Shown here piece by piece: positions 11,075-14,594 of a stretch of 64,000 bases of DNA. Position 1 is the stretch's first letter, and the number at the start of each line of letters is the position of its first letter. This DNA comes from Dehalococcoidia bacterium (GTDB taxonomy: Bacteria > Chloroflexota > Dehalococcoidia > SM23-28-2 > HRBIN24): contig JAVVHA010000011.1 of assembly GCA_032249735.1 (NCBI GenBank), positions 1 through 64,000 on the forward strand, given 5' to 3'. The position numbers were made by a program, and so were the translations under genes. The notes beneath the pieces are model-generated. The model made no database searches and had not been told where the DNA came from. It was given only the letters and a program-made list of their open reading frames with translations.

Positions 11075-11313
11075 CAGGGGGGCAGGCGGCCCCTACCCCA
11101 CCACAAGGCGAGGGCCACGGCTGTGGCGGTGAGGCCCACCGCCATCAGCCCCCATGCCCAGTGAACAGCGAAGGCCACTACCAGGCCACCTATGGTCACC
11201 ACTAGGGCCGTGAAGGTCATCAGGGGCCAGAAAAGGATGGACAAGATGGCCCTTGTGATGGCCCAGGCCTCCCACCACCATGGGGGAGGGCGTGGGGGCT
11301 CATGGCGCCTCAT
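11071..11313 (-). CDS. Small two-helix membrane protein
   Basis: An 80-residue hydrophobic protein of no recognised family. The N-terminus is Pro/Trp-rich (PPRPPPWWWEAWAI). Two or three membrane segments follow (roughly residues 17-43 and 45-70), then a short basic tail. Its start overlaps the 3' end of pyrD by 14 nt, so it should be translationally coupled to pyrD. It might be a membrane partner of the pyrimidine enzyme, but nothing in the sequence supports that beyond position. Confidence 0.6.
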   Translation of the reverse strand: MRRHEPPRPPPWWWEAWAITRAILSILFWPLMTFTALVVTIGGLVVAFAVHWAWGLMAVGLTATAVALALWWGRGRLPPC

Positions 11314-12238
11314 GGCCAGGGGCTAATGCGGCGCCGATGAGGTGATGGACGTCCTCGATGCCCTCGCGGGCCAGGAACCCCTGCAGCCCTTCGAGCACTT
11401 CCCAAGGCGCGCGTGGGTTGCGGAAGATGGCAGTGCCGATCTGGACGGCGGTGGCCCCGGCCATAAGGTACTCTACGGCGTCTTGCCAGCCGACGATGCC
11501 CCCACAGCCGATGATGGGCACCCCCACCTGCGCCCGGGCCACGTCGTACACCAGCTTGAGGGTGAGGGGCTTGATGGCTGGCCCCGAGAGGCCGCCCCCT
11601 ATGGGCAGAGCCGGCCGCCCCCGCCAGATGTCGATGGCCAGGCCAGGGTAGGTGTTGGCGATGGTGAGGGCGTCGGCACCTGCCTCGGCCACTGCCCTGG
11701 CCACGGCCACCACGTCCGAGGCGGCGGGGCTTAACTTGACGATGATTGGCAGGGTTGTCTGCTCTCTCACAGCCCTGGTCACCTCGGCCGCCAAGGATGG
11801 GTCGCAGGCGAACTCCAGGCCACTCTCCACGTTGGGGCAGCTGATATTCAGCTCCAGGGCGCTGATGCCAGACACCCCATCCAGGGCCCGGGCCAGGGTG
11901 GCGTAGTCCTCCACCCTCTCAGCGGCGATGTTGGCCACCACCGGCACCCGCCACGTGGACCATATGGGGGCCAGCTCCTCCACCACCGCCTTAAGCCCCA
12001 CGTTCTGGAGGCCGATGGAGTTGAGAAGACCGGCGGGCGTCTCCACCAGCCGGGGCTGGGGATTGCCCCGGCGGGGCTGTAAGGTGATGCCTTTGCTCAC
12101 TATGGCTCCTAGGGCGTCCAGGTCGAAGAGGCGGCGGAACTCGATGCCGTTCCCGAAACACCCTGAGGCCACCATGATGGGGTTGGCAAGAATCAGGCTC
12201 CTCTTGCCCTTCCCGCCAATCTCCACCTGGAGTCGCAT
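11300..12238 (-). CDS. pyrD: Dihydroorotate dehydrogenase catalytic subunit, class 1B
   Basis: A 312-residue FMN-containing PyrD oxidising dihydroorotate to orotate. Features are NPIMVASGCFGNG at the start, KGITLQPRRGNPQPRL, a NSIGLQN segment, ELNISCPNV with the class 1 catalytic Cys, PIIVKLSPA, ALTIANTY, and the FMN phosphate site IIGCGGIVGWQDAVEYLMAGATAVQIGTA (given in part). A pyrK gene at 15504-16286 confirms class 1B, which uses NAD+. It stands apart from the main pyr operon. ATG 12238 is chosen; TATACT lies 10 nt upstream, implying an almost leaderless message. Confidence 0.95.
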   Translation of the reverse strand: MRLQVEIGGKGKRSLILANPIMVASGCFGNGIEFRRLFDLDALGAIVSKGITLQPRRGNPQPRLVETPAGLLNSIGLQNVGLKAVVEELAPIWSTWRVPVVANIAAERVEDYATLARALDGVSGISALELNISCPNVESGLEFACDPSLAAEVTRAVREQTTLPIIVKLSPAASDVVAVARAVAEAGADALTIANTYPGLAIDIWRGRPALPIGGGLSGPAIKPLTLKLVYDVARAQVGVPIIGCGGIVGWQDAVEYLMAGATAVQIGTAIFRNPRAPWEVLEGLQGFLAREGIEDVHHLIGAALAPGHEAP

Positions 12239-12277
12239 ATCCCTAACCAGTATAAGCCGGCGCAAAAAGGAGACGAT

Positions 12278-12304
12278 AAAAAAGGGCCGTCACCAAGACG
12301 GCCC
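12278..12304 (-). terminator. Intrinsic terminator of the zinc-ribbon gene
   Basis: On the minus strand, GGGCCGTC (12297-12304) pairs with GACGGCCC (12284-12291) around a 5-nt loop, followed immediately by six T (12278-12283). It is a classical intrinsic terminator, 22 nt after the stop of the 93-residue gene. Confidence 0.9.
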
Positions 12305-12325: not shown

Positions 12326-12607
12326 TCAAAGGGCTATGGCCATCTCTCCCCTAGCTCCTTCAGCTAGGGAAAAGCCCTCCTCGTCCTCCTCTGCCACAGG
12401 GCGCCTCATCACCGTCTCAGAAGAAGGAGGCTCCTCACCCCAGTAGTAGTACTCCGGGGTGGAGTTGCGGAATTCCCGCACCGCCCCACAACGCCTGCAA
12501 CGCCCCACGCTCATGGTCCCACTGGGGCTGGCGATGACCCAGTGATGGCGGCAACGGGGAGCTCCCTCAAGGGCCTCCGCCCCCCTCTCCAGCACCGCCT
12601 CGCTCAT
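12326..12607 (-). CDS. Zinc-ribbon-like small protein of unknown function
   Basis: A 93-residue protein with putative zinc ligands C-R-H-H near residue 18 and GRCRRCG (CxxC) near residue 36, then GAVREFRNS and an aromatic EYYYWGEE segment, ending in an acidic tail. The paired ligand pattern suggests one small zinc ribbon. It stands alone between a perfect consensus promoter (12703-12731) and a strong terminator (12278-12304), so it should be a highly expressed single-gene transcript. GGAGGTG lies 8 nt before ATG 12607. Function is unknown; a nucleic-acid- or ribosome-associated role is only a guess. Confidence 0.7.
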   Translation of the reverse strand: MSEAVLERGAEALEGAPRCRHHWVIASPSGTMSVGRCRRCGAVREFRNSTPEYYYWGEEPPSSETVMRRPVAEEDEEGFSLAEGARGEMAIAL

Positions 12608-12702
12608 CTCCTCATCACCTCCACTATATAGATAACGTCCAAAGCCCCTCCGCTACACCGGCCCCGCGTAACCATCTCGTTACATTTTTCACCAGCACGG
12701 CC

Positions 12703-12731
12703 ATTATAGCAACCCCCCTCAGCCTTGTCAA
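12703..12731 (-). promoter_or_regulatory. Perfect consensus sigma-70 promoter
   Basis: On the minus strand, TTGACA (12726-12731), exactly 17 nt, then TATAAT (12703-12708): a full match at both hexamers. Predicted leader to ATG 12607 is about 89 nt and carries an inverted repeat GTAAC/GTTAC (12668-12672 and 12679-12683), a possible operator or RNA element. Confidence 0.85.
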
Positions 12732-12806: not shown

Positions 12807-12840
12807 GTGGGGCGGAGGGGCCTGAGGGCCAAGGGGTTTG

Positions 12841-13506
12841 ATGCACCCGACCAAGAGGCGCATCCTGGATCATCTGAAGAGGCGAGGGAAGGGGACCATC
12901 GATGAGCTAGCGCGGGATATGGCCCTGTCGCGGGCCACGGTGCGCCAGCATCTTATGGCCCTGGAGAGGGATGGCCTGGTGATGGCCAGGGAGGAGCGGG
13001 GGCCTAGTCGGCGCCCCCGCTACGTTTTTTATCTCGGTGCTGCCGGGCACGATGCCTATCCCAAGCGGTATGGCCAGCTGGCCCTCCTTCTCCTGGAGGA
13101 GGTGGGCAAGCTGGAGGCCCAAGAGCTGGAGGGCCTCTCGGCCGCCCAGAAGCGCGGCCTGGTGCTGGCCCGCGCCCTAGAGAGCATGGCCAGGACAGCC
13201 CTCATCAGCACCCAGGGCATGGGTCTGGGCCAGCGGGTTCGGCTGGTCACCAGGCTCTTACAAGAGCAAGGGGGACTGGCGGAGTGGCGGCGGGTGGAAG
13301 ATGGGTATGAGATCATCGACTACAACTGCGTCTTCCAGCGGGTGGCGGAGAGTTACCAGGAGGTTTGCCAATGGCATGTCCAGCTCCTGGCCCGCCTCCT
13401 GGGCTGCGCCGTCCGGTGCTTGGAGTACCAGAGCCAGGGGGCCAATGCCTGCAGGTTCGTAGTGCAAGCCTCGTCCCCTGGCCCGCAACAGGAGGTATCC
13501 ACATGA
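12841..13506 (+). CDS. SufR-like HTH transcriptional regulator with Fe-S-type cysteine motif
   Basis: A 221-residue regulator. Residues 1-60 are a winged helix (RRILDHLKRRGKGTIDELAR, SRATVRQHLMALERDGLV). The C-terminal third has four regularly spaced cysteines, C-x12-C-x12-C-x14-C plus one extra Cys, within IDYNCVFQRVAESYQEVCQW, LLGCAVRC and ANACRF. This closely resembles the cluster-binding motif of SufR, the repressor that senses Fe-S status. It overlaps the downstream mrp/ApbC gene by 4 nt (ATGA), so it probably controls Fe-S cluster assembly or trafficking. ATG 12841 is chosen over TTG 12838; AAGGGG is the ribosome site. Confidence 0.82.
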   Translation: MHPTKRRILDHLKRRGKGTIDELARDMALSRATVRQHLMALERDGLVMAREERGPSRRPRYVFYLGAAGHDAYPKRYGQLALLLLEEVGKLEAQELEGLSAAQKRGLVLARALESMARTALISTQGMGLGQRVRLVTRLLQEQGGLAEWRRVEDGYEIIDYNCVFQRVAESYQEVCQWHVQLLARLLGCAVRCLEYQSQGANACRFVVQASSPGPQQEVST

Positions 13507-14594
13507 GCAACGAAAGGCTCAGCAGGGAGGAAGTCCTAGAGGCCCTCAAGGCCATACGGGACCCAGACCTAGGACGGGACATCGTCTCCCTGGGCTTCGT
13601 GACCCTTGAAGACGTGGCCTTATGCGGCGACCGGGTTAAGGTGACCATAACCCTCACCACCCCCGCCTGTCCAGTGCGGGACGAGATGCGGCGGCAGGCG
13701 GAGGAGATCCTGCGCTCCCTGCCGGGCATCGCCCATGCCGAGGTGGAGATGAGGGCCCAGGTGCGCTCCACGGGCTTCCGTGGCCCGCGGCCTGTGGAGG
13801 GGGTGCGCAACCTCATCGCCGTGGCCTCCAACAAGGGAGGTGTGGGCAAGAGCACTGTGGCCGTCAACCTGGCCCTGGCGTTACGGGACTTCGGGGCCAG
13901 GGTGGGCCTTTTGGACGCCGACCTGACGGGGCCCAACGTCCCCACCATGCTGGGTCTCCCCCCAGGGTTCCAGGCCGACCGAGGGCTCTCCATTGTGGAG
14001 CGTTACGGCATTAAGGTGGTGTCCCTGGGGTTCCTCCTGCCGCCTGGCACGGCCGTCATCTGGCGGGGCCCTATGATAGGCACGGGCGTCCGCCAACTTT
14101 TGCACGACATCCCATGGGGAGAGGACGGGGAGTTGGACTATCTGGTGGTGGACTTGCCCCCTGGCACCAGCGACGCCTCCATGAGCCTGGCCCAGGATGC
14201 CACCGTCACTGGGGTGGTTATCGTCACCACCCCCAACCTGGTGTCCATCGAGGATGCGCTGAAGGCCGTATCCCTCTTCGAGCGGCTCCACGTCCCCATC
14301 TTCGGCGTCATCGAAAACATGAGCTACTTCATATGCCCCCACTGTGAAGGAAGGGTGGAGATATTTGGGCACGGGCGGGTGCAGGAGGTCTGTCGGGAGG
14401 CGGGGCTGGACTACCTAGGGGCCATCCCCCTGGACCCGCGGGTACGGGAAGGGGCGGACCGGGGGGTGCCCATAGTGGAGGCCGACCCCCATTCCCTCGT
14501 TGCCCAGGCCATAAGGGCCATCGCCCAGAAGGTGGCGGCCAAGGCCAGCATCCAGCACTTCGCCGTGCAGGCCCCTAGTGGCGAGAGGGGCTAA
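13503..14594 (+). CDS. mrp: Mrp/ApbC/NBP35-type Fe-S cluster carrier ATPase with N-terminal MIP18 domain
   Basis: A 363-residue protein. Residues ~1-95 are a MIP18/DUF59 domain (LKAIRDPDLGRDIVSLGFV, TTPACPVRDEM). Residues ~105-350 are a P-loop ATPase of the MinD/Mrp class with the deviant Walker A ASNKGGVGKSTVAVNLA, DADLTGPNVP, DYLVVDLPPGTSD and the cluster-binding FICPHC (CxxC). Mrp proteins bind a bridging [4Fe-4S] cluster at the dimer CxxC and hand it to apo-enzymes. CAGGAGG lies upstream of ATG 13503. Its partner is the SufR-like gene it overlaps. The stop interlocks with the convergent MBL gene at 14591-14594. Confidence 0.95.
   Translation: MSNERLSREEVLEALKAIRDPDLGRDIVSLGFVTLEDVALCGDRVKVTITLTTPACPVRDEMRRQAEEILRSLPGIAHAEVEMRAQVRSTGFRGPRPVEGVRNLIAVASNKGGVGKSTVAVNLALALRDFGARVGLLDADLTGPNVPTMLGLPPGFQADRGLSIVERYGIKVVSLGFLLPPGTAVIWRGPMIGTGVRQLLHDIPWGEDGELDYLVVDLPPGTSDASMSLAQDATVTGVVIVTTPNLVSIEDALKAVSLFERLHVPIFGVIENMSYFICPHCEGRVEIFGHGRVQEVCREAGLDYLGAIPLDPRVREGADRGVPIVEADPHSLVAQAIRAIAQKVAAKASIQHFAVQAPSGERG

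Follow-up and report, generated by a model that had tools for sequence, protein, structure and literature searches.

A zinc-ribbon gene of Dehalococcoidia with a conserved near-consensus promoter and, in most relatives, a putative ECF-type promoter shared with Tad-pilus and c-di-GMP genes

Introduction

For ECF sigma factors such as ECF41, bipartite promoters are known that have a spacer of 16 ± 1 nucleotides and a -10 element of the CGTC type (PMC3426412). In Pseudomonas aeruginosa, loss of the ECF sigma factor SigX lowers the expression of flp and tad (PMC3832394), and in Haloferax volcanii several deletions of one-domain zinc-finger micro-proteins raise biofilm formation and abolish swarming (PMC6562870).

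In this work we analyzed a stretch of 64,000 nucleotides from a Dehalococcoidia bacterium (the window), in which a small zinc-ribbon protein is encoded under a sigma70-type promoter (P1). In most relatives within the order, the leader of this gene contains a second promoter-like motif (P2). This motif resembles the ECF41 promoters in its bipartite structure, its spacer of 16 ± 1 and its CGTC-type -10, and differs from them, as they are given in the cited part of that work, in its -35 ([TC]GTAAC[GA], followed by the -10 C[AG]TCT, vs. TGTCACA in ECF41), which places it outside the ECF41 group (PMC3426412); its target set, made up of Tad-pilus and c-di-GMP genes, is also different. An ECF sigma factor encoded in the Tad locus of these bacteria is comparable to SigX, likewise an ECF sigma factor tied to flp/tad, whereas the cited part of the SigX report neither places its gene within the tad locus nor names a zinc-ribbon target (PMC3832394). 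The Haloferax micro-proteins are also small proteins of a single zinc-finger type; in contrast, they are archaeal and shorter than 70 amino acids, and an ECF promoter is not described for them in the cited part of that study (PMC6562870). The new point is a predicted P2 regulon, specific to the order, in which Tad pili, c-di-GMP enzymes and the zinc-ribbon protein come together. An uncharacterized, class-wide protein family thereby gains its first regulatory context, and its role becomes testable in a mostly uncultured bacterial group; a search of the open-access literature listed no paper on the zinc-ribbon family or on any ECF sigma factor of a Chloroflexota Tad locus.

Gene Layout and Conserved Neighbors

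The open reading frame of 93 residues with the motifs CRHH and CRRCG, reported in the initial annotation, was confirmed at 12326..12607 on the minus strand, and so was the terminator at its 3' side, an intrinsic one at 12278..12304 (-) with a stem of 8 pairs (12304-12284) followed by TTTTTT. The conserved zinc-ribbon core (residues 19-50, with C19, H21, C37, and C40) corresponds to 12458..12553 (-), and GGAGG at 12618..12622 (-) is, judging from the sequence, the likely Shine-Dalgarno sequence. Downstream lies pyrD, coding for dihydroorotate dehydrogenase (11300..12265, -); on the other side there are a divergent SufR-like HTH regulator (12838..13506, +), matched below the NCBIfam cut-off, and the ORF of a P-loop ATPase (13365..14594, +), which we take to be Mrp/ApbC-like. 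These neighbors are conserved. In 23 of the 25 genomes of the order the homologue adjoins the pair formed by the Mrp-like ATPase and the SufR-like regulator and/or, on its other side, pyrD; the remaining two genomes (G006 and G019) have only a non-syntenic copy. The neighbor genes of the syntenic homologues grouped as protein clusters c0, c1, and c2; several of the loci showed clusters c4 and c5 instead, which we read as ORFs antisense to these neighbor genes. In three loci of other families (L119, L121, and L128) the gene follows an ORF that presumably represents the end of a citrate synthase gene.

Protein Family and Predicted Fold

A single copy of the zinc-ribbon gene was found in the window's own genome. 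Homologues were present in all 25 genomes of the order (E ≤ 0.01), often several per genome, and the profile built from alignment A1 matched 241 out of 393 genomes of the class (E ≤ 0.001), so that the protein can no longer be called an orphan, as had been done from the window alone. Among named genomes, the matches belonged only to Chloroflexota and Dehalococcoidia MAGs.

Alignment A1 comprised 25 sequences chosen without motif selection, and 13 positions were invariant in it (C19, H21, W23, I25, P28, G30, S33, G35, C37, C40, F46, N48, and W56; 25/25). The initial annotation had named loss of the Cys/His residues among homologues as an observation that would speak against it; the putative zinc ligands were kept in 25/25 sequences. 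C19, H21, W23, C37, C40, and F46 were also invariant in all 67 sequences of the larger alignment A2, where conservation is biased because most of the class and viral members were selected by their C/H motif. Among the five loci not captured by that filter, R or K replaces the second H (H22) in three, all with C19 intact; a fourth carries H at the position of C19, and the fifth retains all the residues. Two putative metal-binding knuckles (C.H and C..C) are conserved among the homologues, as expected of a single-domain zinc ribbon. The C-termini of many homologues of the order are short hydrophobic tails (AIAL, ALAL, ALAV; region 12326-12350 in the window). Such tails, in our assumption, recall the ssrA-type degradation tag, and regulated proteolysis would be possible.

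The AlphaFold model contained a confident ribbon at residues 21-50 (block means of pLDDT 89-93), with strands at 23-25, 32-37, and 43-47 (pLDDT about 90), and low confidence elsewhere; pTM of the whole model was 0.38. Fold searches gave zero significant structural matches; the weak Foldseek matches, none of them significant, were to the zinc ribbons of XPA, Rpp21, Rpb9, and Elf1. A profile search of solved structures yielded one match at chance level (E 0.71), and NCBIfam and PHROGs yielded nothing of note for this protein. Weak similarity to PF19134 (DUF5817, Pfam) spanned residues 17-47, and 22 of the 25 members matched it at E ≤ 0.1; the window protein scored 18.2 bits, below the gathering cut-off of 31, and by this measure stays outside that family.

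Relatives are also encoded in 20 IMG/VR loci, and in one of them (L260:889-3207) the homologue comes directly after the genes for the small and large terminase subunits. This would be consistent with a gene of phage origin retained in the host, a history that we consider very unlikely given the order-wide synteny with core genes and the lack of a match in the phage and plasmid record collections; moreover, the gene could equally well have passed from host to phage.

The Sigma70-Type Promoter

P1 (TTGACAAGGCTGAGGGGGGTTGCTATAAT, 12731-12703, i.e., 12703..12731 on the minus strand) matches the consensus at 12/12 positions, with a spacer of 17 and TG preceding the -10. TTGACA-N16-18-TATAAT occurred once in the 64 kb window (mean of 0.01 across 100 shuffles), and its description as the only perfect consensus promoter holds at that scale; in the whole genome (1.73 Mb) it is one of five perfect sites, three of them with spacer 17 (0 in the reversed-pattern control). 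Regarding the other four (L033, L034, L036, and L037), one presumably precedes an Hsp20-like gene and another an enoyl-CoA hydratase-like gene.

Conservation of P1 was assessed through the best sigma70 score in the 250 nt that precede the first matched residue, as compared with dinucleotide shuffles. Scores of at least 11/12 were obtained in 16 of the 23 syntenic orthologues (shuffle mean 0.015) and 12/12 in 10 of them (shuffle mean 0), although for these counts, as for those of P2, the shuffles overstate independence because the 23 orthologues are related. A near-perfect P1 is, at the level of predicted promoter sequence, conserved across the order. Outside the order, 0/34 loci of the class scored above 10/12 (40 loci were fetched, and 6 were left out as they had no motif match). 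The initial annotation had deduced an abundant protein from this arrangement; a consensus promoter is by itself no proof of high output.

Three of the loci outside the order (L100, L107, and L109) have in common TTGACA-AAGACGAAATC-like -35/-10 spacers, which represent another conserved promoter type.

A Second, ECF-Type Promoter Motif in the Leader

The leader of the window gene carries the box TGTAACG at 12678..12684 (-). What the initial annotation overlooked is that most relatives have, at the place of this GTAAC box, the -35 of a further, putative ECF-type promoter. P2, defined as [TC]GTAAC[GA]-N16-C[AG]TCT, was found in 17 of the 23 syntenic leaders, in all cases with a spacer of 16 (shuffle mean 0.005), and in 0/7 non-syntenic (paralogous) copies. 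In most of the order it is located inside the P1 leader, just downstream of P1, and in the relatives it combines an AAC-containing -35, a CGTC-like -10 and a spacer of about 16, as ECF-type promoters do. A stricter pattern (TGTAACG-N15-17-CRTCTWA) gave 45 sites in the 25 genomes of the order vs. 1 in the reversed control, and 2 vs. 7 in 113 genomes of the class outside the order. This indicated a genuine motif, confined to the order.

Since genomes of the class outside the order have the protein without P2, its basic function cannot depend on P2. The same distribution fits a constitutive housekeeping zinc ribbon, associated with the ribosome or RNA polymerase, for which P1 would suffice and P2 would be an addition of this lineage without meaning for surface life. 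The retention of P1 where P2 has been lost (family f1 and locus L013, see below) and the weak, non-significant Foldseek matches to the zinc ribbons mentioned above also point in that direction. Against it, P2 spacing is exactly 16 nt in 17/23 leaders, even where P1 has changed: three orthologues from one genus (L008-L010) have a P1 without TTGACA and an intact P2. This constancy points to selection on P2, and we regard the purely housekeeping explanation as possible and rather doubtful.

Extension of P2 to Tad-Pilus and c-di-GMP Genes

P2 was not confined to the zinc-ribbon gene. According to Pfam, one locus codes for TadE, CpaB/RcpC, a TadZ-like protein, a TadA-type ATPase and TadB/C-type proteins, and an ECF sigma gene ends this Tad-pilus locus on the opposite strand; the sigma factor of L240 matched PF04542 and PF08281 (Sigma70 regions 2 and 4) above the cut-off. 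P2 occurred upstream of all 17 close orthologues of this sigma gene (59-100% identity), a pattern indicative of autoregulation, and of 0/13 more distant ECF sigma matches (for the distant matches in the window's own genome, the upstream region examined was that of L292). The gene that follows the sigma gene (L240:1190-2437, L248:12425-13273) matched nothing in Pfam and contained a single hydrophobic stretch, which would fit a membrane anti-sigma factor and make it a candidate for a new anti-sigma family.

Flp pilins of the QA[LM][AT]EYG type had P2 in 15 of 16 loci vs. 0/10 for other pilin types, counts that leave out 5 of 31 loci mis-centered on a neighbor gene (L219, L220, L226, L228, and L230). 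Further P2 targets coded for response regulators and for proteins with GGDEF, EAL, and HD_5 domains; in this survey the loci of 30 of the 45 strict sites were examined, two of them covering the same region, and some sites had no clear target gene.

A repressor bound immediately after P1 could exert its effect there, and the location of the motif would also suit an operator for a DNA-binding regulator instead of a promoter. Such a role is unlikely considering that [TC]GTAAC[GA]-N16-C[AG]TCT consists of two different hexamers at a fixed spacing of 15-16 nt with an ECF-like -10, and that it precedes the gene of its own candidate sigma factor in 17/17 loci and is absent outside the order.

With a little less than even confidence, we favor a single-domain zinc-ribbon regulator that would be expressed from a housekeeping promoter and would, in most relatives, also belong to a pilus/surface regulon. 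The protein would be cytosolic, with a single zinc-ribbon domain and disordered tails, and P1 would maintain it at a steady housekeeping level. The sigma factor of the Tad locus would read P2, a pairing suggested by the shared motif, and P2 may add zinc-ribbon protein when the surface-attachment programme (pilus and c-di-GMP) is on. More speculatively, the zinc ribbon might contact nucleic acid, the ribosome or RNA polymerase and in this way tune the switch to the sessile state. A narrower proposal, which we find somewhat unlikely, is that in this order of Chloroflexota the protein could be a dedicated intracellular output of a previously undescribed ECF sigma regulon of the Tad locus (pilus and c-di-GMP turnover), supplied by tandem housekeeping and ECF promoters; through an effect on how the regulon is transcribed or translated, it would connect basal growth with the switch to sessile life. 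A role in the sessile switch might parallel that of the Haloferax micro-proteins, likened here by their description.

Leader Repeat and RNA Structure

The GTAAC/GTTAC inverted repeat noted in the initial annotation is present in the window (12668..12683, -; GTAAC at 12683-12679 and GTTAC at 12672-12668), but it does not stand as a meaningful element: the leaders of the three closest relatives contained no copy of it, and the predicted leader fold had a z of -1.24, with 22 of 200 shuffles folding equally well. It is probably incidental. The suggestion that the leader forms a small RNA of its own, or a structured cis-regulator, drew on this repeat in the window copy; the values above, together with the absence of an Rfam match at the gathering score and the fact that the conserved parts of the leader are explained as P2, render it highly implausible.

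Two other interpretations of leader boxes were dropped. CATCTT as an anti-Shine-Dalgarno sequence was discarded on account of its constant 16-nt gap from TGTAACG and of the motif being common to sigma and pilin genes, and ATGTAA as an AUG-UAA start-stop because the base preceding TGTAAC varies.

P2 in the Window's Own Family

The families of the order differed in P2. In the window's own family (f1), [TC]GTAAC[GA] is retained 18-19 nt downstream of the P1 -10, and C[AG]TCT at the spacing of P2 was found in 0/4 f1 genomes, with none in the window at 15-17 nt from TGTAACG. No close orthologue of the Tad sigma factor was detected in f1 (best identity 37-39%); the single f5 genome lacked P2, a close sigma orthologue and a Flp pilin match, and P2 was not recognizable in the leader of L013. 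In both f1 and L013, P1 was retained. P2 membership thus belongs to families f2-f4, and the box of the window would be at most a remnant. Having lost a recognizable P2 -10, the gene of the window, and of its family, is probably transcribed from P1 alone. Elsewhere in the window's own genome, a Flp pilin gene of the QALAEYG type is preceded by TGTAACA-16-CGTCT.
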